NCBI RefSeq assembly: GCF_023544445.1
Contig: NZ_JALPVJ010000001.1
Coordinates: 1-64,000 of the forward strand
Length of the DNA: 64,000 nucleotides
Source of the DNA: Actinoplanes sp. M2I2
GTDB taxonomy: Bacteria; Actinomycetota; Actinomycetes; Mycobacteriales; Micromonosporaceae
Reading direction: 5' to 3'
Shown: positions 5,723-47,656 of the stretch, piece by piece
Numbering within the stretch: the stretch's first letter is position 1
Layout of the letters: each line of letters opens with the position of its first letter
Notes under the pieces: generated by a model
What the model saw: only the letters and a program-made list of their open reading frames with translations
What the model was told of the DNA's origin: nothing
Databases searched by the model: none
Made by a program: the position numbers and the translations under genes

Positions 5723-6283
5723 TCAGTCGCACCCGCTGTGCGTCATGGTCGGCGGCCGGGGAGCGTGGCCGGGCCGGAAGGGCCCGCCGCCGCGGCCGAT
5801 CCGCAGGCGGCGGGCGGTGACGTGCCCGAGCGAACCGAGATCGACGCCCCGCACCGGGCCCAGCCAATGCCGTTCGCCGGGCACGAACCGGACCGGCGCC
5901 TCGATCGACTGGAGCAGTTCGTGGGTCGCGTCGGCGATGGTCGCCACCACCCGCGAGGCCAGCTCGTTCTGCCCGATCAGGCCGTCGCGCATCAGCAGGC
6001 GGCCGACCCGGTGGGCTCCGCGGCCCTCGGCCAGCACCGTGCGCCAGGCCGCGGCGGCGACCCGGCCCGACGCGACCAGGCGTTCGCCCAGGCCGGGGCA
6101 GGCGGGCGTCTCGGCGTACGCGATGCGGCCGGCCACCAGATAGAGGACGCCGCCCGGACGTCCGCCGACGTGCAGCGCGCCGGTACGGGCCGACTCGCCC
6201 AGTTCGGTCAGCTGGCGCCGCAGGCTCGCGGTGGCCTTGGAACCTGGAATCACGATGACATCCTCGGCGGCATCGAGGAGCAT
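5723..6283 (-). CDS. PATAN/DUF4388 domain protein, short form
   Basis: 186 residues from ATG 6283. PATAN/DUF4388 domain: SLRRQLTELGESARTGALHV, GGVLYLVAGRIAYAETPACP, GLGERLVASGRVA, RVGRLLMRDGLIGQNELASR, APVRFVPGERHWLGP. The last phrase is nearly identical to EFLAGATHWLGP in the paralogue at 4097-5167. It lacks the winged-helix-like part and ends in a basic tail. It is first gene of the operon PATAN-RB-PATAN-RB-RB and diverges from the VOC gene by 90 bp. Likely a non-enzymatic signalling adaptor; no partner is known from sequence alone. Confidence 0.7.
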   Translation of the reverse strand: MLLDAAEDVIVIPGSKATASLRRQLTELGESARTGALHVGGRPGGVLYLVAGRIAYAETPACPGLGERLVASGRVAAAAWRTVLAEGRGAHRVGRLLMRDGLIGQNELASRVVATIADATHELLQSIEAPVRFVPGERHWLGPVRGVDLGSLGHVTARRLRIGRGGGPFRPGHAPRPPTMTHSGCD

Positions 6284-6373
6284 CGCGGCGGACCGTCAGT
6301 GCGCCGTTTCGGGCAAGGCACAATCGGCATGGCGGCGTAACATGATCGCCACTTCTCGATGAAGGGACCGTGT

Positions 6374-6727
6374 ATGCCGAGCCAATGGGAGCAGATCGTC
6401 GTCGACGCGGAGGACCCCGCGCGGCTGGCCCGCTGGTGGGCCGAGGCGCTCGGCTACGTCATCGTGCACGAGCAGCCCGACGAGGTGGAGATCCGCCGCA
6501 GCCGCGACGAGCTGCCCGGCCTGCTCTTCGGTGTGTGCCCGGACACCAAGACGGTGAAGAACCGGCTGCACATCGACCTGCGCCCGGACGACCAGGAGGC
6601 CGAGGTCGAGCGGCTGGTCGACATGGGCGCCCGGCACGTCGACGTCGGTCAGGGCGACGTGAGCTGGGTGGTGCTGGCCGACCCCGAGGGCAACGAGTTC
6701 TGCGTGCTGTCCTCGAAGCGCGGATAG
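6374..6727 (+). CDS. glyoxalase-like (VOC superfamily) protein
   Basis: 117 residues from ATG 6374; RBS gaaggga at 6361-6367. One VOC domain of the Glyoxalase_6 type: QIVVDAEDPARLARWWAEAL, GYVIVHEQPDEVEI, NRLHIDLRPDDQEAEVERLV and VLADPEGNEFCVLSS. The His of HIDL and the Glu of GNEFC are usual metal-ligand positions. Substrate unknown; family members range from dioxygenases to resistance proteins. An in-frame ATG at 6359 is possible but would overlap the RBS. Confidence 0.82.
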   Translation: MPSQWEQIVVDAEDPARLARWWAEALGYVIVHEQPDEVEIRRSRDELPGLLFGVCPDTKTVKNRLHIDLRPDDQEAEVERLVDMGARHVDVGQGDVSWVVLADPEGNEFCVLSSKRG

Positions 6728-6753
6728 CCGGTCCGCCCGTCACCGCGCCCGCA

Positions 6754-6759
6754 TAGGGT
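6754..6759 (+). promoter_or_regulatory. -10 box of a leaderless dgt promoter
   Basis: TAGGGT ends 7 nt before ATG 6767, so transcription should begin at the start codon. No Shine-Dalgarno sequence precedes the ATG. Confidence 0.5.
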
Positions 6760-6766
6760 TGATCCC

Positions 6767-7981
6767 ATGACGGCGTTCGAGGCCCAGCGGTGGATCCCCG
6801 AGCCGGCCAAGGACAGCGGCTACGGACGGACGCCCTATCAGCGCGACCGGGCCCGGGTGCTGCACTCCGCCGGGTTCCGCCGGCTCGCCGCCAAGACCCA
6901 GGTGCACACCGCGGGCTCGGACGACTTCCTGCGCACCCGCCTGACCCACTCGCTCGAGGTGGCGCAGATCGCCCGCGAGATGGGCGAGCGCCTCGGCTGC
7001 GACCCCGACGTGGTCGACGTCGCCGGTCTCGCCCACGACCTGGGTCACCCGCCGTTCGGCCACAACGGCGAGCACGCGCTGCACCAGGTCGCCGAGTCGT
7101 GCGGCGGGTTCGAGGGCAACGCCCAGACCCTGCGCGTACTCACCCGGCTCGAGGCCAAGGTGCCCGGGGCCGGGCTCAACCTGACCCGGGCGTCGCTCGA
7201 CGCGACCTGCAAGTACCCGTGGCCGCTCGAGCCCGGACGGCGCAAGTTCGGGGTGTACGCCGACGACCACCCGGTCTTCGACTGGGTGAGGCCGCCCGGG
7301 CTGGGCGAGCGGCGCTGCCTCGAGGCGCAGGTCATGGACTGGGCCGACGACGTGGCCTACTCCGTGCACGACGTCGAGGACGGGGTGCACGGCGGATACC
7401 TCAGGCTGCGACCGCTGCTCGACGACCAGGCCGAGCGGGACGCCCTCTGTGCCGACGTCGCCGCCACCTACTCCGACGAGCCGGCCGGCGAGCTGGCCGC
7501 CGCCCTCGATCACCTGCTGGCCGACCCGGTGGTGAGCGAGGTCGCCCGATACGACGGCAGCTACCGCACCCAGGTCGCGCTCAAACGGATGACCAGCGTG
7601 CTGACCGGCCGTTTCGTCGCCTCGGCGGTGGGCGCGACGCAGAGCCGGTACGGGACCGAGCCGGTGCGCCGCTACGACGCCGACCTGATCGTGCCGCGCA
7701 CCGTCCGTAATCAATGTGCGCTGCTCAAGGGCATGGCGTTGCGCTACGTGATGCGTACCCGGGCGGCCGAAGGCTGGTACGAACAGCAGCGCGTGATCCT
7801 GATCGAGCTGGTGGAGGCGCTGTTGCGGACGCCCTCGGCCCTGGACCCGGTCTTCGGCCCGCTCTTCGAGGCGGCCGGCAGTGATGCCGAGGCGTTGCGC
7901 GTGGTGATCGACCAGGTGGCTTCGCTCACCGACACGGCCGCGGTGACCTGGCACGGCACCCTGGTGGCAGCCCGGGCCTGA
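6767..7981 (+). CDS. dgt: deoxyguanosinetriphosphate triphosphohydrolase-like protein
   Basis: 404 residues. HD-domain dNTPase that releases triphosphate from dNTPs. Metal ligands His61 (RLTHSLEV), the His90-Asp91 dyad and following histidines in AHDLGHPPFGHNGE are intact, as is the VMDWADDVAYSVHDVEDG segment. The N-terminal RTPYQRDRARVLHSAGFRRL block is typical of the family. Length is normal for the shorter actinobacterial form. It is followed after 11 bp by dnaG, an order common in actinobacteria, which links nucleotide pool control with primase expression. Confidence 0.93.
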   Translation: MTAFEAQRWIPEPAKDSGYGRTPYQRDRARVLHSAGFRRLAAKTQVHTAGSDDFLRTRLTHSLEVAQIAREMGERLGCDPDVVDVAGLAHDLGHPPFGHNGEHALHQVAESCGGFEGNAQTLRVLTRLEAKVPGAGLNLTRASLDATCKYPWPLEPGRRKFGVYADDHPVFDWVRPPGLGERRCLEAQVMDWADDVAYSVHDVEDGVHGGYLRLRPLLDDQAERDALCADVAATYSDEPAGELAAALDHLLADPVVSEVARYDGSYRTQVALKRMTSVLTGRFVASAVGATQSRYGTEPVRRYDADLIVPRTVRNQCALLKGMALRYVMRTRAAEGWYEQQRVILIELVEALLRTPSALDPVFGPLFEAAGSDAEALRVVIDQVASLTDTAAVTWHGTLVAARA

Positions 7982-22692: not shown

Positions 22693-23385
22693 TCACCCGT
22701 TCACGAGGCGGCTCAGGTTGGTGAGGCTCGTGACCAGCGCCATTGTGTAGCCGAGGATGCGACCGGCCCACTTGACCACCGCCGACGCGATCTGCGCGGC
22801 GACGATCGGGATGGTCACGACCAGCAACGCCTCGGCCGCCCACACGATCACCCGGGCCACGAGGTCGGCGATCAGATCCCGTACGAGATCCCGGGTGAAC
22901 ATGACCAGGTTGCCCGCCGCCTGCGTCGCTGACGACATCGTCGTGGCCAGCGACGACAACCCGCCGAGGGCGTCGACGTTGTTGGCCATCAGGCTCTGGT
23001 AGGTCAGCGCGGCCGGCCCGGTCCAGTCCGGCACGTCCGCGGCCAGGGCGCCCTGCAGATCACCGGCCATCGCGGCCAGTTCGCGGCCCATGTTCTCCCA
23101 GGTCGCGGCGTGCGCGGCCACGCGTGCGGGGATGCCGGCCAGCTTGTCGAGGACCTCACGCAACGGCTCGAAGTACTCCATCGCCCAGCCCAGCCCGTTC
23201 GCCAGCAACGTGCCGAACGGGTCGAGCACCGCCGCGCCGGCCTCCAGGGCGAACGCCCCACCGGCCAGCGCCTGATCGACCCAGCCGCCGCCCGCGATCG
23301 ACTGCTGCAACCCCTGGAAGCTGTCGACCAACGAGGCGCCCGACGTGCCCGGCCCGGTCGAGGCGACGGCGATCAGGTTGGTCAT
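22693..23385 (-). CDS. WXG100-like type VII secretion target protein lacking a toxin domain
   Basis: 230 residues from ATG 23385. The N-terminal half (about 20-130) is helical with DSFQGLQQSIAGGGWVDQAL and a WENMGRELAAMAGDLQGALA segment followed by DWTGPAALTYQSLMANNVDA, the WxG-type hairpin turn of ESX substrates. The C-terminal half has hydrophobic helices (LVARVIVWAAEALLVVTIPI). In related loci such N-termini carry polymorphic toxins at the C-terminus; here it stops without one. It overlaps the EspC-like gene by 4 bp. Confidence 0.65.
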   Translation of the reverse strand: MTNLIAVASTGPGTSGASLVDSFQGLQQSIAGGGWVDQALAGGAFALEAGAAVLDPFGTLLANGLGWAMEYFEPLREVLDKLAGIPARVAAHAATWENMGRELAAMAGDLQGALAADVPDWTGPAALTYQSLMANNVDALGGLSSLATTMSSATQAAGNLVMFTRDLVRDLIADLVARVIVWAAEALLVVTIPIVAAQIASAVVKWAGRILGYTMALVTSLTNLSRLVNG

Positions 23386-23696
23386 GGCAGCCCACCGGCC
23401 TTCCGCAGCCGCTCGGCCGCGGCATCGTCGGCGACCTCGTAATCCTGGCTCGTCCGCAGAAGCGCGTCCGACGCGAGGCGCAAGTTCTCCTCGACGTACG
23501 CGTAGAGCTCGTCCTGCTTGGCGTGCCGGGCCTCGAGAATGCCGGCCATCCATCCGCAGAGCATCCCGTACGCGGCGTCGTCCTGAACGATGGCCGTGCT
23601 CGCCGCCTTCACCGCCGCGAACCGCTGCTGGATCGCGTCGACCTTGGCGGCGTGCGCCCGGATCTGCCCCGCGTCGACCTGGAACCCGTCACTCAT
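23382..23696 (-). CDS. EspC-like type VII secretion target
   Basis: 104 residues, helical: GFQVDAGQIRAHAAKVDAIQ, then YGMLCGWMAGILEARHAKQD and LRLASDALLRTSQDYEVADD. The N-terminal pattern and the terminal YxxxD (YEVAD) match the ESX-1 secretion-associated/EspC family (DUF2580), where YxxxD/E is part of the T7 export signal. Overlaps both neighbours, so the three genes are translationally coupled. Confidence 0.7.
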   Translation of the reverse strand: MSDGFQVDAGQIRAHAAKVDAIQQRFAAVKAASTAIVQDDAAYGMLCGWMAGILEARHAKQDELYAYVEENLRLASDALLRTSQDYEVADDAAAERLRKAGGLP

Positions 23697-24078
23697 CCGC
23701 CGTCCCCCGCAACTGCCGCAGGACCTGTTCCTCGATCACGCGTCCCGCCGTGGACCCCGGCCCCATCGTCTCGTCGATGATCCGCCGGCTGATCTCGGCC
23801 GCCTCCCGCCGGGCGATCCCCAGCGCGGTCATCACAGCCCGGGACACGGCCTCGGGCGCAACCCGCTGGATCCGCTCGGTGAACGCCACCGAGACAAGCA
23901 CCCCACTCGAGTCGATGGTCACCTCGACCAGCCCGTTCCCGTCGGCGGCACTGATCCGCAGCCCCTCGAGGCGCTCGCTCAGGGCCTGAGCGGTGGCCGC
24001 GGCCCGATCGACACGCCCCTTCCAGTCCCGCAGGTACTCCCGCGAACTGTCCGGATCCAAGAGAGGCTCGGTCACCAC
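23689..24078 (-). CDS. YbaB/EbfC-family protein linked to secretion-target genes
   Basis: 129 residues from GTG 24078 or GTG 24075. Helix AATAQALSERLEGLRISAAD, strands GLVEVTIDSSGVLVSVAFTE and a C-terminal helix correspond to the YbaB/EbfC fold (DNA-binding nucleoid-associated proteins). In actinobacteria paralogues often precede EspC/WXG genes and may act as secretion chaperones or regulators; the role is unproven. The stop overlaps the EspC-like gene by 8 bp. Confidence 0.65.
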   Translation of the reverse strand: MVTEPLLDPDSSREYLRDWKGRVDRAAATAQALSERLEGLRISAADGNGLVEVTIDSSGVLVSVAFTERIQRVAPEAVSRAVMTALGIARREAAEISRRIIDETMGPGSTAGRVIEEQVLRQLRGTADE

Positions 24079-24101
24079 TTCTTTCTACCGCGCCACGTCA
24101 A

Positions 24102-24485
24102 TCATCGATCTGTACGTTCTTGTTCGGCCTGGTCGATCGCGGCATGAACCCACCCGGCCAACTCCCCGAGAAACACCGTCGCACCGTCATCAGTCGGATC
24201 GTGATCGAGCGGCCAGCCTCCGTCGACGGAGACCAGGAGGAACAGCGTTCCTTGCGGAAGATCGGCGGTGAGGATCTCTTCGAGCGCGGCCACCTCTTGG
24301 CGAAGGTAGTAGGTGTTGTAGCGCGCTGTTGCGAGGAGCTGCTCTCGGATCTCATCTGTGCCGTCTGTGTCAACGACGTAGCTTCGCAGGAGCGAGCGCG
24401 CCTTCTCCATGGCCGGGCGCGCCTCACGCTCAGCGATTCGCGCCCGCAGCGGCTCCGGAAGCCGGGAGGTGTCCATGGGCCTCAC
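24102..24485 (-). CDS. probable immunity protein for the RNase A-type toxin
   Basis: 127 residues from GTG 24485; an ATG nine bases in would give 124. No recognised family. Acidic, with helical ARPAMEKARSLLRSYVV and a strand-rich middle (GTLFLLVSVDGGWPLDHDPT). The start overlaps the stop of the toxin by 4 bp (GTGA), the usual arrangement of CdiA-CT/CdiI pairs, and this is the evidence for the immunity call. Confidence 0.55.
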   Translation of the reverse strand: MRPMDTSRLPEPLRARIAEREARPAMEKARSLLRSYVVDTDGTDEIREQLLATARYNTYYLRQEVAALEEILTADLPQGTLFLLVSVDGGWPLDHDPTDDGATVFLGELAGWVHAAIDQAEQERTDR

Positions 24486-24979
24486 CGTAGTATCCCGGCT
24501 GGAAAAGCGCTCACGACAAAGGCCTTCGCCGGATCGGAGTTCGGAACGAGCTCGATCCTGATGAGCATCAGTTTCGTCACCATGTAGTGCGCTTGGCGTG
24601 GCCCGGTCCCGTACATGCCGCCGTTGAGAAATCCTTCGCCCACTCGATTGTCGGACGTGAAGTAGTCCTCGTGCCGCCCACCCAGAGCTAGATCACTGCG
24701 GATGGCTTCCCAGTTCTGCCGGACGTACCTGTTGATCTCTCGCGTCATGACAGCCGGGCTGTCCCATCGAAACGACTGGTTCTCCGGTCTTCTCCAGCCC
24801 GTGTCCTTATAGATGCGTCCCTCGATGGTCTGCACATCGGGATCTCGACGGAGCGGAACATCAGGACCGTGCCGGGCGATCGTGTGTGCCGTGCTGTTGT
24901 CGTGATCGTTCTGCGCGAGATTGATCCGCGGAGGTTCCGGGCCAAGCTGATCGTAGGTCCTCAAAGCGGCGCTGAGCAT
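24482..24979 (-). CDS. CdiA-CT RNase A-like toxin domain (orphan module)
   Basis: 165 residues. Motifs of the bacterial CdiA-CT RNase A domain: an N-terminal His in STAHTIARHG, the middle block VGEGFLNGGMYGTGP and a last strand KAFVVSAFPAG. In this family the first His and late basic/polar residues cleave RNA. ATG 24979 is the first start in this frame, with a TAG 18 codon positions before any linker. The Pro/Asp-rich linker expected upstream exists at 24961-25230 but in another frame, so the toxin has been detached from its delivery protein by a frameshift or was captured as an orphan. Confidence 0.65.
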   Translation of the reverse strand: MLSAALRTYDQLGPEPPRINLAQNDHDNSTAHTIARHGPDVPLRRDPDVQTIEGRIYKDTGWRRPENQSFRWDSPAVMTREINRYVRQNWEAIRSDLALGGRHEDYFTSDNRVGEGFLNGGMYGTGPRQAHYMVTKLMLIRIELVPNSDPAKAFVVSAFPAGILR

Positions 24980-25567: not shown

Positions 25568-26674
25568 ATGATCGGGGCGGGGATTCCGGTCGACCGGGTC
25601 GTCTCGCTTCCCGGGGTCGCGGTCGACGATCTCGCTCGGGCGCTGGCCGAGGCGGGGGAGCTGGCGCCGCTGGTGACTCGCGTGCCTGCTTCCTGTGCCA
25701 GCCCGGGAGCGTTCGCCGAGGCTGCGGTCGGGGCGCTCGAGAAGGCGGCCGTCGAACTGCTGCCGGCCTGGCTTCCCGAGGCGGGTGGGAGCCGGGCCGA
25801 TGTGGGCGGGATCGCCGCCGCGCGTCTGCTGGCCGCTGACCTCGCGCGCAAGAGCCACTACCCGCGGACGTTCCTGACCGATCTTGCCGTTCTGGCACTG
25901 ACCGGCCACCGGCCGCACCGGCTGCCACCGCTGCGAATCCGGGCGCGGGAGCTGGCCCGGCTGGTCGCCGAGGCGTTCGGCCGACGCCGGACAGTGCTGC
26001 TCGTCGATGGCACCGGCGGACTCGATCGAGCCGGTGGGGTTGAGCGGACCGGCGGACTCGATCGAGCCGGTGGAGTCGAGCGGACCGGCGGAGTTGATCG
26101 AGCCGGGGAAGTCGATCGCACCGACGAAGTCGATCCCGCCGGGGGAGCCGACCGGGTCGGCGGCGTCGACGCTGTCGTCGCCGGGGCCGAGTGGCTGGTG
26201 AGCAACGGCGGCCCCGCAGTCTGGTTGCTCGGCGCCGGCAGTGAGCGCGTCCCCGCAGTACATCTGGGGCTGCCTGCTCGGAAAGCCAGCACCGCGGAGG
26301 CGGGCCGCCCACACCCCGCGAGCACGGTCGAGGCCAGGCTCGAGGCGGCGCTGGCCAAGGAGGCGTGGGCGACCGGGCGCCGCTGGAATCAGGATCACCG
26401 GTCGAATGCGCTCACCCCGACCGTACGGTTGGATCTCCTGTGGCCGCGGGAGCGGTGTGTCGTCGAGATCGACGGGCCCGAGCACTGCCATCCGCTGCGC
26501 TATGAGCAGGACAGGCGGCGTGACGTGCAATTGACTCTCGACGGTTATGCCGTCCTGCGTTTCACCAATGCCCGGATCATTCATGACGTCGGCGCCGTGG
26601 TTCACCAGATCGGCACGTATGTGCGGGGACGGCGGCGCGATACAGCGGAAGGACACCACCATGGCCGGCGATGA
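25568..26674 (+). CDS. DUF559/VSR-fold endonuclease with repeat linker
   Basis: 368 residues from ATG 25568 (an in-frame GTG at 25475 would add 31). The C-terminal domain (about 255-345) is a PD-(D/E)XK nuclease of the DUF559/very-short-patch-repair type: helix VEARLEAALAKEAW, TVRLDLLWP (Asp289), CVVEIDGPEH (Glu300, Asp302), RRRDVQLTLDGYAVLRFT. The N-terminal helical domain (1-145) is unrecognised. Four 12-residue repeats (151-198) join them. The gene overlaps the next by 14 bp. No cytosine methylase lies nearby, so a Vsr repair role is unlikely. Confidence 0.75.
   Translation: MIGAGIPVDRVVSLPGVAVDDLARALAEAGELAPLVTRVPASCASPGAFAEAAVGALEKAAVELLPAWLPEAGGSRADVGGIAAARLLAADLARKSHYPRTFLTDLAVLALTGHRPHRLPPLRIRARELARLVAEAFGRRRTVLLVDGTGGLDRAGGVERTGGLDRAGGVERTGGVDRAGEVDRTDEVDPAGGADRVGGVDAVVAGAEWLVSNGGPAVWLLGAGSERVPAVHLGLPARKASTAEAGRPHPASTVEARLEAALAKEAWATGRRWNQDHRSNALTPTVRLDLLWPRERCVVEIDGPEHCHPLRYEQDRRRDVQLTLDGYAVLRFTNARIIHDVGAVVHQIGTYVRGRRRDTAEGHHHGRR
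26018..26161 (+). repeat. 36-bp in-frame tandem repeats (4 units) in the nuclease gene
   Basis: Units at 26018, 26054, 26090 and 26126 encode GLDRAGGVERTG, the same again, GVDRAGEVDRTD and EVDPAGGADRVG. The first two DNA units are almost identical, showing recent slippage or duplication; the last two have diverged. Multiples of 36 bp keep the frame. Confidence 0.85.
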
Positions 26675-27299
26675 CCTGACCCCCACCGAGGGCGCGATCC
26701 TCATGGTCCTGATGGTCGAGGCCCGCGAGGTCCTCAACACCGAGCTCAAGGCCCGGTACGGGCTCGACGTACGCAAGGAGCAGCGGGACAAGCTGGGCCG
26801 GCTGCACTACGTGTCGAGCCGCCGGAGCGGGCGCACCGTGGCGATGCAGCTGGACGACAAGGGCTGGGTGCGCATGCAGAGCGACTTCGACTTCAAGGCG
26901 CGCGGGGCCACGGCGCTGGGGGCCGCACTGACCGCGCTGCACGCCGACCTGCGTGACCGCCTCCTCGAGCGCAGCGGCGCGGCCAACCTCACCGAGTTGT
27001 TCGCGCAGACCGAGATGCGCGCGACGTCGGCCGCTCCCGGTGATCTGGGTCCGCGTCTGGTCAGCGCCTATCACGCGCTCGCGCGGGAGCCCGGCGCGTG
27101 GGTGAGCCTGGCCCGGCTGCGCCCGTTCTTCGCCGACGTGCCCCGGGCCGACCTGGACGAGGCCCTGCGGCGGCTCAGCCGGGAGGACGGCGTGAACATC
27201 GTTCCGGAGTCCAACCAGAGCTCCCTGACGGCGGCCGACGACGAGGCCGCCCTCCAGCTCGGCGGTCAGCGGAACCACCTGCTGGCGATCGGCGTGTGA
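26661..27299 (+). CDS. winged-helix-like protein of the nuclease/HerA operon
   Basis: 212 residues from ATG 26661 (RBS ggaagga). The N-terminal part (about 5-75) looks like a winged helix: LTPTEGAILMVLMVEAREVL, NTELKARYGLDVRKEQRDKL and a GRTVAMQLDDKGWVRM wing. A second helical block (about 135-195) repeats a PEST-free HTH-like pattern (LRPFFADVPRADLDEALRRL). No known family name. Its end overlaps the ATPase start (TGATG), so production is coupled. Possibly a specificity or DNA-binding subunit for the ATPase. Confidence 0.65.
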   Translation: MAGDDLTPTEGAILMVLMVEAREVLNTELKARYGLDVRKEQRDKLGRLHYVSSRRSGRTVAMQLDDKGWVRMQSDFDFKARGATALGAALTALHADLRDRLLERSGAANLTELFAQTEMRATSAAPGDLGPRLVSAYHALAREPGAWVSLARLRPFFADVPRADLDEALRRLSREDGVNIVPESNQSSLTAADDEAALQLGGQRNHLLAIGV

Positions 27300-30200
27300 T
27301 GGACGAGGCGCAACGAGCGGCGCTGGCGTCCCTGCGGTTCAACTGGGCGCCGGTTCCCGACGACATCTGGCGTCCGCTGCCGTTCCACGTCGACGGCCTG
27401 CATCTGCCGGCGCTGCGTGACATCGCCGACGGCTACGCCGAGGCCGGGGCCAGCCGGGACGCCAGCCCGATCGGGCTGGTGGTGCAGGGGCAGCGCGGGT
27501 CGGGCAAGACCCACCTGCTCGGCTGGGTGCGGCAGCAGGTGCAGGGCCAGGGCGGGTACTTCTTCCTGGTCAGCCTGCTCGACGCGGGTGGCTTCTGGGA
27601 CAGCGTGCTCGCGGCGATGCTGGACGGACTGTCCCGCCCGATCCCGGGCACCGATCAGACCCAGCTGACCGTGCTGCTGCGCCGGCTGTCGGCGATGGTC
27701 GGCGCGCCCCGCAAGTCACGGCGTGCGGTCATGGGGGAGACCGAGCTGACCCGGGCCGACCTCGACGCGTTCATCGAGGGGCTGGGCGAGTACGACCGGC
27801 AGGTGGCGCGGTCGAGCCAGGAGACCGCCCGGGCGCTCGCGCTCAGTGCCTCCGAGGACGTCGCGCACCGTGACCTCGCCGAGAACTACTTCGTCTCGGG
27901 TGAGGAGAACGTGGCGGGCGAGCGCAACGCGTGGGGCATGCGCCGCGCGGCCCGGCCGGCGCAGCTCATCGTCCAGGACCTGTCCTGGCTGCTGGCGCTC
28001 ACCGGGCCGTCGGTGATCGCGATCGACCAGATCGACACGCTGATCGCGCAGGTGGCGGTCCAGAGCGATCCCACCCTGGCCGCCGCGGCGGTCGTCGACC
28101 CGGAACAGGCGCTGATGCTGGCGCGGATGGCCGACGGCCTGATGACCCTGCGGCAGATCACCCGCCGGACGCTCACCGTCCTGGCCTGCATCCCCAACTC
28201 GTGGACCATCGTCTCGTCGACGGCGGCGGACACCGTGGCCGACCGGTTCCGGCTGACGCCGCAGCTCAAGCGGATCAACGACGACGACCTCGCCCGCGCC
28301 ATCATCGAGAAGCGGTTCGGGCTGCGCTATCAGGAGGCGGGTTTCGAGCCGCCGTTCCCGACCTGGCCGATCGCGGCGGGGGCGTTCGCCGAGGCCGGCC
28401 AGTTCACGCCGCGCCAGCTGCTGATGGAGATCGACCAGCACGTCCGGGCCTGTCTCGCGGACGGCGAGGTGCGCATCCTCGAGCGCCTCGGCGAGCCGGT
28501 CGTTCCCCGGTCGGTGTCGACGGTTCCGGCGGGCGACGGGCTGGAGGCGTACGACGCGAGGTTCGCAGAGCTGCGGAAGGCGGCCGACGTGGTCACGCCG
28601 CTGGGGCGTACGACCGAGGATCGGGCCATGCCGGCGCTGCTGGCCGCCGGGCTCACCGCCTGGATCCTCGAGCGGGGCGACGAGGCCTTCAGCGTGGACC
28701 CGCCGCCGAGCGCCGATCCGCCGCTGCACGCGCGGCTGCGGCTGACCCTGGACGAGCGTACGGAGGATCAGGCGCACTGGTGCTTCCGGGCGATCAGCGA
28801 CGAGCACCATCCCAGCGCGGCCCTGGCCCGGATCCGCAAGGCGTCCCGGGCGGCGGCGGTCGACGCGGGCACCCCGAAGAGGCGCCTCTTCCTGTTGCGC
28901 AACGGTAAGTGGGGGGCGGGGGAGCGTACGCGGGATGCGGTGTCCGAGTTGGAGCGTCGGGGCGGACGGACGCTCGCGCTGAGCGAGGACGACCTGCGGA
29001 CGTTGTCGGCGCTGCACGTCATGCTGGCCGAGACGACGATGGACCTGCAGGGCTGGCTGGCCGAGCGCCGTCCGGCCCACGGTCTCACTGTTCTGCAGGA
29101 AGCCTTGTCCGATGTGGCAGCTTGGATCGCGCCGGCCGCGGTGAGCTCAGCGCCCGCTGTCGATGCGCCCGCTGTCGATGCCCCCGCTGTCGATGCGCCC
29201 GCACAGGCCGCGACCGCCCCTGACAGCTCCGAGCCGGCCTTCACCGTCGGGTACGACTACCAGGACGGGTCGCCGGCCCGCCTGCCCCTCGAGGCGCTGC
29301 GGAAGCACGCGACCATCTTCGCCGGCTCGGGCTCGGGCAAGACGGTGCTGATCCGGCGCGTGATCGAGGAGTGCGCGCTGCAAGGCGTCTCGGCCATCGT
29401 GCTCGACCCCAACAATGACCTCGCGCGCCTGGGCGAGGCCTGGCCGGAACCGCCCGCCCCATGGCGTCCCGACGATCCGGCCCACGCCGCGGAATACCTG
29501 GAGAACACCGACGTGGTGGTCTGGACGCCCCGGCGTGCGTCCGGTCGGCCGCTCAGCTTCCAGCCCCTGCCCGACTTCCGCAGCGTCCGCGACGACGAGG
29601 ACGAGTTCAACGAGGCGGTCGAGGCCGCCGTCGCGTCGCTCGCGCCCCGCGCCGGTGTCACCGGCCGCACCACCAAGGCCGCACTGGGCCTGGCCGTGCT
29701 GCGCAAGGCGGTCGAGCATTACGGCCGCCGGGGCGGCACCCGCCTCAAGGGGCTCATCGACACCCTGGCCGCCCTGCCCGACGGCACGATCGACCTGGAC
29801 GACGCCGACAAGATCGCGCTGGGTCTGGCCCAGACGCTCACCGCGGCGATGGTCAACGATCCGCTCTTCGGCGGGCACGGCACCCCGATGGACCCGGGCC
29901 TGCTGCTCACCCCGGCCCCCGGCAAGCGCGCCCGCGTCTCGGTGATCAGCCTGGTCGGGCTGCCCTCCGACGACGTACGGCAAAGCTTCGTCAACCAGCT
30001 GCAGATGGCCCTGTTCGCGTGGATCAAGAAGAACCCGGCCGGCGACCGCCCCCTGCTCGGCCTGCTGGTCATGGACGAGGCCCAGACGTTCGCCCCGTCC
30101 GGCGCGATGACCGCCTGCACCCAGAGCACCCTGGCGCTGGCCGCGCAGGCCCGCAAGTACGGCCTCGGCCTGATCTTCGCCACCCAGGCGCCCAAGGGCC

Positions 30201-30559
30201 TGCACAACCGCATCCCCGGCAACGCCGCGACCCAGATGTACGGCCTGATGAACAGCCCCATCCAGATCGAGGCCGCCCGCGACATGGCCAAGGCCAAGGG
30301 CGGCGACGTGCCCGACATCTCCCGCCTCACCGTCGGCGAGTTCTACCTGGCCGCCGAGGGCGCACCCCCACGCAAGATCCGTACGCCGCTCTCGCTCACC
30401 CACCACCCGCGCAGCCCGCTGACCGCCGAGGAGGTCCTCGCCCGGGCCCGCCCCGGCGATCAGCCCAGGAACGATCTGCCCGGCGAGGCCCGGACGGTCA
30501 GGCTCACGCCCGGTGTGATCCCGGGAGAACGGGAGGGCCGGTTACCATCGGCGCAATGA
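27299..30559 (+). CDS. double P-loop ATPase: N-terminal AAA, C-terminal HerA-like translocase
   Basis: 1086 residues. N-terminal ATPase: Walker A GQRGSGKT at 63-70, Walker B-like VIAIDQIDTL near 240. The middle region (about 400-615) is unrecognised. A repeat linker (618-635) leads to a HerA/FtsK-type domain: Walker A AGSGSGKT near 675, AIVLDPNNDLARL, Walker B LLVMDEAQTFAPS near 921, sensor-like GLGLIFATQAPKGLHNRI and a C-terminal brace. HerA ATPases work as hexameric DNA translocases with nuclease partners in repair and phage defence. The gene overlaps both neighbours. I know of no named system with this exact fusion. Confidence 0.82.
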   Translation: MDEAQRAALASLRFNWAPVPDDIWRPLPFHVDGLHLPALRDIADGYAEAGASRDASPIGLVVQGQRGSGKTHLLGWVRQQVQGQGGYFFLVSLLDAGGFWDSVLAAMLDGLSRPIPGTDQTQLTVLLRRLSAMVGAPRKSRRAVMGETELTRADLDAFIEGLGEYDRQVARSSQETARALALSASEDVAHRDLAENYFVSGEENVAGERNAWGMRRAARPAQLIVQDLSWLLALTGPSVIAIDQIDTLIAQVAVQSDPTLAAAAVVDPEQALMLARMADGLMTLRQITRRTLTVLACIPNSWTIVSSTAADTVADRFRLTPQLKRINDDDLARAIIEKRFGLRYQEAGFEPPFPTWPIAAGAFAEAGQFTPRQLLMEIDQHVRACLADGEVRILERLGEPVVPRSVSTVPAGDGLEAYDARFAELRKAADVVTPLGRTTEDRAMPALLAAGLTAWILERGDEAFSVDPPPSADPPLHARLRLTLDERTEDQAHWCFRAISDEHHPSAALARIRKASRAAAVDAGTPKRRLFLLRNGKWGAGERTRDAVSELERRGGRTLALSEDDLRTLSALHVMLAETTMDLQGWLAERRPAHGLTVLQEALSDVAAWIAPAAVSSAPAVDAPAVDAPAVDAPAQAATAPDSSEPAFTVGYDYQDGSPARLPLEALRKHATIFAGSGSGKTVLIRRVIEECALQGVSAIVLDPNNDLARLGEAWPEPPAPWRPDDPAHAAEYLENTDVVVWTPRRASGRPLSFQPLPDFRSVRDDEDEFNEAVEAAVASLAPRAGVTGRTTKAALGLAVLRKAVEHYGRRGGTRLKGLIDTLAALPDGTIDLDDADKIALGLAQTLTAAMVNDPLFGGHGTPMDPGLLLTPAPGKRARVSVISLVGLPSDDVRQSFVNQLQMALFAWIKKNPAGDRPLLGLLVMDEAQTFAPSGAMTACTQSTLALAAQARKYGLGLIFATQAPKGLHNRIPGNAATQMYGLMNSPIQIEAARDMAKAKGGDVPDISRLTVGEFYLAAEGAPPRKIRTPLSLTHHPRSPLTAEEVLARARPGDQPRNDLPGEARTVRLTPGVIPGEREGRLPSAQ
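29150..29203 (+). repeat. 15-bp in-frame tandem repeats in the ATPase linker
   Basis: Three near-identical 15-nt units (29150, 29165, 29180) plus a partial fourth encode APAVD repeats between the two ATPase halves. The units differ at a single base. Confidence 0.85.
30543..30548 (+). promoter_or_regulatory. -10 box of a possible leaderless internal promoter
   Basis: TACCAT inside the end of the ATPase gene lies 7 nt before ATG 30556, the same geometry as other leaderless starts in this window. The methyltransferase may thus be made independently of the operon. Confidence 0.4.
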
Positions 30560-31146
30560 GTGATCAGAACGGCTGGCTCAAGCTCCTGGGCGAGAACCCC
30601 AACCACTCCCAGTGGTACATCGACCGTTTCCGGTCGATGGCCGAGGCCGGCGCCGACCTGGCCGGCGAGGCCCGCCTGGTCGACGCGATGCTGCCCCGCG
30701 GGGCGAAGGTGCTCGACGCCGGCTGCGGTACGGGACGCGTCGGCGGCCACCTGGCCGCCGCCGGTCACGAGGTCGTCGGCGTCGACCTCGACCCGGCCCT
30801 GATCGCCGAGGCGCGCGCCACCCACCCGGGCGCCCGCTGGCTGACCGGCGACCTGAGCGAGCTCGACCTGCCCGACCGCTTCGACCTGATCGTCAGCGCC
30901 GGCAACGTCATGACGTTCGTGGCGCCCAGCACCCGCGCCGAGATCCTCCGCCGGTGCGGGCGCCACCTCGGCGACGGCGGACGCCTGGTCGTCGGCTTCG
31001 GCGCCGGCCGCGGTTACGCCTTCGACGACTTCCTGGCCGACGCGGCCACCGCGGGCCTGACCAGCGACCTGCTGCTAGCGACCTGGGACCTGCGCCCGTT
31101 CACCCCGGACGCCGACTTCCTCGTCGCAGTGCTCCGCGCCGCCTGA
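30556..31146 (+). CDS. class I SAM-dependent methyltransferase
   Basis: 196 residues. Rossmann methyltransferase: motif I VLDAGCGTGRVGGHLAAAG, acidic motif II VVGVDLDP, then GDLSELDLPDRFDLIVSAGN and GRLVVGFGAGRGYAF. There is no D/N-PP-Y/F motif, so it is not a recognisable DNA adenine or N4-cytosine methylase; a small-molecule or protein substrate is more likely. Its ATG overlaps the ATPase stop by 4 bp, but a possible leaderless promoter also precedes it, so membership in the nuclease operon is uncertain. Confidence 0.82.
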   Translation: MSDQNGWLKLLGENPNHSQWYIDRFRSMAEAGADLAGEARLVDAMLPRGAKVLDAGCGTGRVGGHLAAAGHEVVGVDLDPALIAEARATHPGARWLTGDLSELDLPDRFDLIVSAGNVMTFVAPSTRAEILRRCGRHLGDGGRLVVGFGAGRGYAFDDFLADAATAGLTSDLLLATWDLRPFTPDADFLVAVLRAA

Positions 31147-46314: not shown

Positions 46315-46388
46315 GGGGCGGTAGCTCAGTGGGTTAGAGCAGGGGACTCATAATCCCTCGGTCGCGGGTTCGAGTCCCGCCCGCCCCA
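46315..46388 (+). tRNA. tRNA with CAT anticodon (elongator Met, or Ile2 with lysidine)
   Basis: 74 nt, CCA not encoded. Acceptor GGGGCGG (46315-46321) pairs with CCGCCCC (46381-46387). D arm GCTC/GAGC, anticodon loop CTCATAA with CAT at 46349-46351, T arm GCGGG/CCCGC. The first base pair is G-C, so it is not an initiator. The anticodon arm (GACTCATAATC) and the following GGTCGC closely resemble bacterial tRNA-Ile2, whose C34 becomes lysidine, but elongator tRNA-Met cannot be excluded by eye. Confidence 0.85.
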
Positions 46389-46396
46389 CGGGTAGG

Positions 46397-46507: not shown

Positions 46508-47656
46508 TCAGAACGGCGGATCATCCCAAGGATCGCGGTACGACGCGGGTTCCGGCCACGGGTCCTCTTCTGGCTCCGGCCAGTACTCCTCCACGTCTCG
46601 CTCGCCTTCGTCCTCGCCATCCGCATCGGTGAGGGCAAACGAGCCCTCAGCGCCCTCGATCAAGTCTGCGAACGTCATCACCTCGATGCGGGAGAGATGG
46701 CTGTTGTAGGTACGGATTGCCTCGTTGATAGCTTCCTGCGGAATTCGGCTCTCAACGAACATCGGATGGCCAATGACCACCGTCGCTGACGCACGACGCG
46801 GATCCACCTTGAAGCGGTTGAGGATGAAGTCACGCTGCTCGTCCAAGCTTCGCAGGTAGTTGGCCGCCTGCGAGACCGCCTCGTGCACTTCGTTGCCGAC
46901 CCGATAGTGGCTCCGGTGCTCCCGAATTAACTTGGGGATATTCGCCTGCTTGATCTCGACTACATGCAGCGATCCATCTGACCGGACCAGCAGGAGATCC
47001 ATCTCGTCCCCCGGCACGAGTTGCCGGCGAACGTCGGCCTTGATGTAGCGACCTCCGAACACCCACCACTCTTGGTCCAGAACCTTCTGGATGTCTCCTT
47101 CCAGGCTGGCGGGATCTTCGACAACCTGGCGCCATCTGCGGAGGCCCTGGAGCTGGCGATTTCGCTCGATGACGTCCGCGAGCACCCCCGCCTCGTCCAT
47201 CCGTGCGAGGGCCTCCGCTAAATCGGGTGCGTTGCAGATTGCCGTAACCACACGGTGGACAGCTTCCGCATCGACGCGACCCTCATCGATACCTGCAATC
47301 AGCTGCTGGACGGCTGAATCGTGCGCGGGAAATTGGTAGACGCCAGCGGTTGGGAAAGCGTTGTTGAGCAGATCCCTGACTGCCTCGATCTCCCGATCCT
47401 CGCAATACCACCGATGCTCCGCCCTGTCCTCGAAGCTGAAGCCAGGACCATTGAGGCTCCTGCCGAAGGTTTGCACCTTGAACTCGCGCCGTTTGATTTC
47501 GCCGGTTTCCTCATCCGAGATAGTCAGGATGGTGGCCGACTCGAAGACCCGCCTGCCCTGCTTGACGTCAACCGTCGTGAAGTCAAGAACGTTGGGAGGC
47601 TGATGCTTTGTAGTTGTACGAACTCGAAACGCCTGGGCCGCCGCATCCTGGCTCAT
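46508..47656 (-). CDS. sduA: Shedu-type anti-phage nuclease (DUF4263)
   Basis: 382 residues from ATG 47656. The C-terminal half is the Shedu/DUF4263 PD-(D/E)XK domain: SLEGDIQKVLDQEWWVFGGR, DEMDLLLVRSDGSLHVVEIK with catalytic Asp220, Glu234 and Lys236, then Q237 and VGNEVHEAVSQAANYLRSLD, ATVVIGHPMF. The N-terminal half is a target-sensing region that varies among Shedu proteins. SduA alone confers phage protection in characterised examples. The tail is acidic and Pro/Trp-rich (EEYWPEPEEDPWPEP). It faces the tRNA gene and is more AT-rich than the core genes, which suggests transfer. Confidence 0.82.
   Translation of the reverse strand: MSQDAAAQAFRVRTTTKHQPPNVLDFTTVDVKQGRRVFESATILTISDEETGEIKRREFKVQTFGRSLNGPGFSFEDRAEHRWYCEDREIEAVRDLLNNAFPTAGVYQFPAHDSAVQQLIAGIDEGRVDAEAVHRVVTAICNAPDLAEALARMDEAGVLADVIERNRQLQGLRRWRQVVEDPASLEGDIQKVLDQEWWVFGGRYIKADVRRQLVPGDEMDLLLVRSDGSLHVVEIKQANIPKLIREHRSHYRVGNEVHEAVSQAANYLRSLDEQRDFILNRFKVDPRRASATVVIGHPMFVESRIPQEAINEAIRTYNSHLSRIEVMTFADLIEGAEGSFALTDADGEDEGERDVEEYWPEPEEDPWPEPASYRDPWDDPPF

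Follow-up and report, generated by a model that had tools for sequence, protein, structure and literature searches.

The window analysed here is a stretch of 64,000 nucleotides from Actinoplanes sp. M2I2 (contig NZ_JALPVJ010000001.1, positions 1 to 64,000), and it carries three consecutive genes on the plus strand that together form a cassette: a DUF559 nuclease (25568..26674), a winged-helix protein (26661..27299) and an ATPase that joins an AAA+ domain and a HerA-type domain in one polypeptide (27299..30559). The winged-helix protein and the AAA+/HerA ATPase are a fixed two-gene core, and the nuclease is the commonest of several partners that occur beside it. We propose, with a probability of about two in three, that this is a counter-invader cassette in which the core recognizes invading DNA and triggers the exchangeable effector carried by the locus. 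The cassette seems to represent a new branch of the HerA-type systems that defend against phages and plasmids, in a general class that has already been predicted. Although the core is frequent within its own bacterial family, we found no name for it.

A fixed pair of winged-helix protein and ATPase

Homologues of the ATPase were compared at 143 loci, a non-random sample made up of three loci from a plasmid collection, the best 80 of 113 confirmed in a genome scan, and 60 stretches from the same family. Dropping seven duplicate pairs (ATPase identity of at least 97%) leaves a non-redundant set of 136 loci. Where the hosts have names they are mostly Actinomycetota, with Methylobacterium and two cyanobacteria as well. 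The winged-helix gene lies immediately upstream of the ATPase gene, on the same strand, at 141 of the 143 loci, and in 128 of these the gap between the two matches is at most 20 bp. At one of the two exceptions the contig begins inside the ATPase gene (L103), and at the other the ATPase is split between two frames and the winged-helix gene is still upstream (L100).

The association also holds in the reverse direction. Reading 61 genomes of the family by eye, we found an ATPase match next to 50 of the 51 winged-helix matches that reach E ≤ 1e-40. The sole exception is in genome G051, where the ATPase has no match and the nuclease is readable only in pieces across two frames. This count left out 16 weaker or partial matches, namely cases of the domain alone, pieces beside copies already counted, and two that adjoin an ATPase. 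A preliminary description of the window had predicted conserved neighbours for homologues of the ATPase, and this is what we find: the winged-helix gene is fixed beside it, and a nuclease or another immune-type gene stands next to the pair at most loci.

Exchangeable partner genes beside the core

Genes at the loci were clustered irrespective of position, and the cluster profiles were then searched in all open frames. The DUF559 nuclease adjoins the winged-helix gene at 57 of the 136 loci, alone at 50 and together with a P-loop/TPR protein at seven; the latter protein is beside the core at 20 loci, 13 of them without the nuclease. A DUF4365-type module is found at 17 loci, 16 with DUF4365 plus a protein of about 360 residues (p360) and one with p360 alone. 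A trypsin-STAND-WD40 gene occurs at 15 loci, with a Trypco1 domain in ten, and an ATPase with a KGGVGR motif is paired with a TIR protein at nine. The remainder comprises 21 loci with none of these families, two at a contig end and two with no winged-helix match in place. None of the partner families was found elsewhere in the fetched stretches of the 136 loci, all open frames included. Second pieces aside, the matches end 5-53 bp (DUF559), 15-65 bp (p360) and 13-39 bp (KGGVGR) from the winged-helix gene. The partner names rest on representatives analysed with Pfam and PADLOC; the P-loop, WD40 and KGGVGR labels are our reading of the sequences, and the TPR and STAND matches fall under the Pfam cut-offs.

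Further partners occur among the 21 loci without a main one. An AIPR-family protein, identified by Pfam and PADLOC at L171 only, is encoded directly downstream of the core at five of them (L075, L166, L169-L171) and at six loci overall, L100 being the sixth. Four encode a related CBS-domain protein, before the core at L097, L164 and L168 and after it at L165; Pfam gives CBS at L165 and nothing at L168, and a C-terminal motif reads as HEPN-like. At L069 a divergent Abi_2 protein is encoded 686 bp from the core.

Several partners resemble components of known or candidate defence systems. PADLOC assigns the representatives of DUF4365 and p360 to PDC-M02A (E 1.1e-69) and PDC-M02B (E 9.8e-133), the KGGVGR protein to PDC-M28B (E 3.6e-26) and the AIPR protein to AbiU (E 3.5e-76). 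DUF4365 has been described as the DREN effector of SPARDA (PMC12205087), and Trypco1 and trypsin domains have been placed in conflict systems (PMC7159879). The partners of the core have, in this sense, precedents in defence.

Upstream of the core at L164, L168 and L097, the CBS-like protein with the HEPN-like C-terminus is accompanied by a protein of about 480 residues that reads as CARF-like, possibly a further signalling module. Large antisense open reading frames (ORFs) at L057, L104, L127, L135 and L152 were set aside as gene-calling artefacts, and the actual partners there were found by the profile search. At L104 the terminal part (about 5899-7000, minus strand) of a miscalled frame of 1142 residues resembles a TIR/SEFIR protein, besides the KGGVGR and TIR pair of that locus.

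How tightly each partner is tied to the core was read by eye genome-wide in the 61 family genomes, for DUF559, P-loop/TPR, trypsin-STAND-WD40 and p360. Places with DUF559 adjoin the core in 25 of 29 cases, the other four being one contig end and three broken copies in a single genome. Of 14 P-loop/TPR places the best seven adjoin the core and the seven weaker ones do not; for trypsin-STAND-WD40 the eight best of 15 places, which are the sole end-to-end matches, adjoin it and the seven partial ones do not. None of the p360 places does. These counts indicate core-specific subfamilies of DUF559, P-loop/TPR and trypsin-STAND-WD40 proteins, and a DUF4365 pair that also lives without the core. Exclusivity of these families to the core is therefore borne out only in part.

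The partner gene is also subject to exchange. At least six genomes (G103, G106, G061, G042, G133 and G196) carry core copies with differing partners. On a FastTree phylogeny of 135 ATPases, in which some long branches were flagged, the seven partner labels need at least 14 changes, compared with a minimum of 6 and a mean of 75.1 for shuffled labels, so partners follow core lineages and are replaced occasionally. The TIR and trypsin types are each confined to one side of a branch in this tree. Loci with both DUF559 and P-loop/TPR proteins may be intermediates of such an exchange.

Presence or absence of the cassette, and the flanking methyltransferase

The four consecutive ORFs of the region have the positions given in the preliminary description, and direct reading confirmed their overlaps of 14, 1 and 4 bp. 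The fourth ORF (30556..31146, plus strand, 196 residues) encodes a class I methyltransferase (Pfam E 3.5e-19), which had been proposed as an operon member. A four-gene operon including METHYLTRANSFERASE, the methyltransferase gene, was rejected: 57 of 60 genomes from the genus, that of the window included, carry the gene, and it is retained at two sites that lack the cassette. It follows the ATPase gene at only four of 103 loci, all close relatives, two of which are one locus. We regard it as a flanking chromosomal gene that is not part of the system, and the real unit as three genes.

Of 17 stretches compared around the methyltransferase, seven have the upstream flank of the window; the other ten show no upstream synteny. 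Five of the seven (L187-L190, L192) match all three cassette genes between the same flanks as the window, as do L035, L036 and L117 (L188 and L036 look like one genome). In L191 and L193 the flanking genes and the methyltransferase are kept, and none of the three cassette genes is present; three of the small upstream genes are missing from L191 as well. Similarity between L193 and window DNA restarts about 20 bp before the start of the methyltransferase gene, and the other breakpoint lies inside the gene at 24485-24979. The cassette is present or absent as a unit, and is probably gained and lost as such.

Motifs and predicted structures of the cassette proteins

The preliminary description had read a DUF559/VSR-type nuclease, two P-loops, a DEAQ-type Walker B motif and a winged-helix-like protein of 212 residues from the window, and all are borne out. 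The putative effector is a 368-residue nuclease of the PD-(D/E)XK fold, Vsr-like, recognized by Pfam as DUF559 (E 7.7e-11). Its catalytic domain spans approximately residues 250-350, preceded by some 250 residues without a recognised fold. D289, E300, D302 and H306 are invariant in the 24 aligned homologues, and the profile matches PDB entry 3hrl, an 'endonuclease-like protein', at E 1.7e-13.

The ATPase has 1086 residues and Pfam matches to AAA_22 (E 3.4e-8) and to the HerA central domain DUF87 (E 4.1e-7). Its Walker A motifs are GQRGSGKT at residues 64-71 and AGSGSGKT at 675-682, and a DEAQ box stands at 926-929. In all 57 aligned homologues, G64, G67, G69, K70, T71, D243 and D246 are invariant in the first ATPase domain, as are G678, G680, K681, T682, D926 and E927 in the second. 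The AlphaFold2 model (mean predicted local distance difference test score (pLDDT) 88.5, predicted template modelling score 0.62) has AAA+, middle and HerA domains. The C-terminal HerA/FtsK domain (residues 641-1045; 29219..30433) is firmly predicted to be HerA-like: by VIA-align over residues 641-1042 it aligns with archaeal HerA (4d2i) at Z 30.6 (322 aligned residues, 3.5 Å) and with the C-domain of DndH (7es4) at Z 29.5 (327 aligned residues, 3.6 Å), the latter tied with VirB4 (4ag6, Z 28.9). The fold matches to the whole ATPase are filled by this part, with residues before 634 hardly represented. The N-terminal AAA+/STAND-like domain (residues 1-400; 27299..28498) matches AAA_16 in 28 of 28 family members, AAA_22 in 21, and an ORC-CDC6-like profile in one at E 0.008.

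The middle domain (residues 412-612; 28532..29134) has, in the model and the alignment, a strand and helix order like that of the PD-(D/E)XK fold, and the catalytic residues are absent. It plausibly corresponds to an inactive restriction endonuclease (REase)-like domain. Its sequence has no significant match, and profile matches in the PDB are insignificant, including one to a restriction endonuclease at E 0.84; alignment with DUF559 gives a probability of 0.2. Residues 578-646 contain short helices only and no strands in the one predicted model.

The 212-residue protein is predicted by AlphaFold2 (mean pLDDT 91.4) to consist of two winged helices with helices between them, the C-terminal one encoded at 27012..27296; Pfam gives only a sub-threshold winged-helix match. 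Foldseek matches the model best to regulators of the MarR/ArsR type and to TubR and AspA, two proteins of plasmid partition, but no match reaches E ≤ 0.001. A profile match to AspA (E 0.0029) is equalled by unrelated calmodulins.

Comparison with known systems

The closest described systems are the Orc/Cdc6-linked 'HerA/FtsK capture systems' predicted by Rakesh, Aravind and Krishnan in 2024 (PMC10853773), with a follow-up paper (PMC12839542). As far as the available portions of the first paper describe them, they combine HerA/FtsK and AAA+ ATPases with a winged helix and an active restriction-type nuclease. The window has a HerA/FtsK domain (Z 30.6; DUF87) and, judging by the DUF559 residues, a predicted active restriction-type nuclease. 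Compared by text description, the window cassette differs in that AAA+ and HerA domains form one polypeptide and the winged helix is a separate tandem protein. The same excerpts state that the winged helix invariably lies C-terminal to an inactive REase in the same chain (PMC10853773), whereas no such cis winged helix follows the middle domain in our predicted model of the ATPase. Relatives of the window cassette also differ from this partial description in that the nuclease is replaced by TIR, DUF4365, AIPR, P-loop/TPR or trypsin-STAND genes.

HerA-DUF4297 and HerA-SIR2 (Nezha) likewise consist of a HerA ATPase and an effector with nuclease or NADase output, in two genes. In those systems HerA stands alone, whereas in the window it is fused to an AAA+ domain and accompanied by the tandem winged-helix protein. 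Membership was rejected on this fusion and on the absence of DUF4297 or SIR2 from the four window proteins by Pfam and PADLOC; the scanned partner representatives gave no match to either family. The DndFGH system shares the fold of the DndH C-domain with the window HerA domain and was also rejected, with no PADLOC match to DndF or DndG in the four proteins or the ten flanking genes; PADLOC presumably contains models for both. Methylation-associated defence (MADS) has the gene set mad1-mad8. The PADLOC mad8 profile matches the HerA part of the window ATPase at E 7.1e-22, but membership was rejected: mad1 and mad3-mad7 have no match in the four ORFs or the ten flanking genes, and what matches mad2 is the methyltransferase portion of the flanking gene. 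The ten genes flanking the four ORFs (six upstream, four downstream) matched no PADLOC model. Both proteins of the PADLOC candidate PDC-M02 are matched by the DUF4365/p360 pair of 16 loci and are absent from the window; our literature search found no paper naming this candidate.

The system had been put forward as undescribed. This stands for the core with these partners, of which we found no description in a search that had most subscription papers outside its coverage; it does not stand for the general class, which the accessible text of PMC10853773 already predicts.

Proposed mechanism and alternative explanations

From gene content and folds we infer a defence role, sensing of DNA and activation of the effector by the core. 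The winged-helix protein and the ATPase would recognize and load onto invading double-stranded DNA, the tandem winged helices and the AAA+ domain being the likely recognition part. Assembly of the HerA ring, or its ATP-driven movement, would then switch on whichever effector the locus carries. This would be the DUF559 nuclease, cutting DNA, in the window; in relatives, the effector slot would be occupied by TIR proteins (probably acting through NAD+ loss), by nucleases of the DUF4365 or AIPR type, or by a trypsin-STAND protein. The preliminary description had taken the nuclease as the effector and the ATPase as a translocating sensor. The nuclease partner holds, but not as the sole effector: other partners occur besides this commonest one, and it is therefore improbable that the ATPase does no more than drive DNA into a nuclease. 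Since TIR, trypsin and STAND-type genes are found with the same core, we consider it more likely that the core gives out a generic activating signal than that it delivers DNA to a nuclease. In HerA-DUF4297, a solved ATPase-nuclease defence complex, the HerA hexamer and the nuclease can activate each other by assembly (PMC11291478). If nucleases, TIR and AIPR proteins, proteases and STAND-type proteins all function with this core, the signal from the HerA ring to the effector could be tested by partner swaps.

Several observations weigh against the proposed cassette function. We know of no phenotype for any member of the family. The ATPase was not found in IMG/VR, which was scanned with short peptide patterns only, or in phage records, and of three matches in the plasmid collection two appear to be chromosomal and the third is on a mobilizable plasmid of 1.57 Mb. 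Eleven of the 136 loci have no recognised partner beside the core, nine of them in Mycobacterium or Mycolicibacterium. The trypsin-type genes always lie on the strand opposite to the core, the P-loop/TPR protein matches no PADLOC model, and 78 hhalign profile comparisons revealed no adaptor domain common to the partners. Partner type follows ATPase clades, so swaps have been few. In the 61 genomes p360 occurs in 13, and none of its 15 places adjoins the core, from which it follows that the DUF4365 module can live without the core and may be a neighbouring system.

The strongest competing explanation, which we hold to be possible at somewhat less than even odds, is that the cassette belongs to the predicted Orc/Cdc6-type capture systems, with AAA+ domain and winged helix localising to invader DNA and HerA pumping that DNA to the nuclease, and no general signalling. 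The domain inventory is near the one given in the excerpts of PMC10853773, the C-domain of DndH is among the best fold matches, and DUF559 is both the commonest partner and the one most tightly tied to the core. It also occurs in the most distant branch of the tree as seen from the window (Methylobacterium and Leptolyngbya, midpoint root). Set against this, DNA is not the expected target of the TIR/KGGVGR and trypsin-STAND-WD40 partners, and the ATPase model lacks the cis winged helix that the paper places after the inactive REase.

The winged-helix protein could instead be only a transcriptional regulator of the operon, leaving a machine of ATPase and effector. Its resemblance to MarR/ArsR-type repressors would fit, and a repressor-controlled immune pathway, CapK/CapS, is known (PMC13373217). 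We nevertheless find this unlikely, given that the winged-helix gene overlaps the ATPase gene by 1 bp in the window, that the close spacing of the two genes extends to every partner type, and that the divergent trypsin partners are not on its transcript. A little less likely still, in our estimate, is a side-by-side arrangement in which the core is one system and DUF4365/p360, trypsin-STAND and AIPR genes are independent neighbours. The places of p360 away from the core, the divergent trypsin partners and the cores without a recognised partner would be expected in that case. Yet p360 occupies the same slot and strand, at its short distance from the winged-helix gene, at 17 of 17 loci (one extra match is a second piece at 873 bp), the DUF559 places and the best P-loop/TPR and trypsin-STAND places adjoin the core, and partner type tracks the ATPase clade. 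A housekeeping role in DNA repair or segregation, as for HerA-NurA, is very improbable. HerA-NurA structures are among the best Foldseek matches, and the ATPase is common in the family, with matches in 122 of 200 genomes at E ≤ 1e-20. That distribution is nonetheless patchy (38 of the 61 family genomes and, in a phylum-wide set of 198 genomes at E ≤ 1e-60, two including the window's own), several copies with different partners occur per genome, the cassette is absent from two syntenic sites, and partners include TIR and AIPR proteins.

The host genome has one full copy of the ATPase and one weak HerA-type match elsewhere. The two plasmid-collection records that look chromosomal are L032 (NZ_LT559118.1, 11.85 Mb) and L033 (NZ_LR134464.1, 224 kb); the latter contains ribosomal protein genes, and its cassette lies beside VapBC between them. 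The nine partnerless mycobacterial core pairs (L050, L051, L053, L055, L058, L064, L066, L078 and L093) are near DUF559-bearing ones in the tree, and effector loss or domestication is possible. Two kinds of mycobacterial neighbour were judged chromosomal background: FAD oxidoreductase and DUF72 genes, read from sequence, 129-287 bp away at five loci, and a divergent Pif1-like helicase gene, 464-812 bp upstream at three loci and behind another gene at a fourth.

The winged-helix domain in mobile elements

The C-terminal winged-helix domain also occurs without the core. It is present twice in tandem (E 3.5e-46) in a prophage protein of L204 (3262-5325, minus strand), encoded between portal and head protease genes and identical in the IMG/VR record L215. 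Other copies are found in an open frame of 1735 residues that follows a terminase gene (L208), close to an endolysin gene (L206), next to a TrwC relaxase (L207), in small proteins from two similar regions within a single genome (L209, L210), and in L205 and L214. Identity to the window domain is 31 to 45% for these stand-alone copies and 18 to 71% for the family members aligned alongside. A search of phage records with the window domain found nothing significant. The N-terminal half of the winged-helix protein is found alone in L212, among metabolic genes, and in L213.

The mobile-element copies may be decoys, triggers or simply shared DNA-binding domains. A winged-helix domain common to phage and plasmid proteins raises the possibility of an arms race around DNA entry. 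A bolder version of our proposal, which we consider doubtful, is that the core is a general-purpose platform that detects some stage of DNA entry, ejection or transfer and, through assembly and not by handing over DNA, can activate effectors of at least six unrelated types, with the winged-helix copies of phages and conjugative elements acting as bait or decoy.

Other features of the window

The Shedu gene noted in the preliminary description is real: it lies at 46511-47656 on the minus strand (SduA_C, E 3.4e-18), just after tRNA-Met (46315-46389), in DNA of lower local G+C content (63-64%). Upstream of the cassette, positions 22696-24979 on the minus strand hold a run of small genes that is syntenic in relatives and includes a WXG100-like protein (E 2.6e-4, under the Pfam cut-off). 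Identity to relatives is 46-73% for the genes at 24105-24476 and 55-60% for 24485-24979, compared with 84-94% for 22696-23696.

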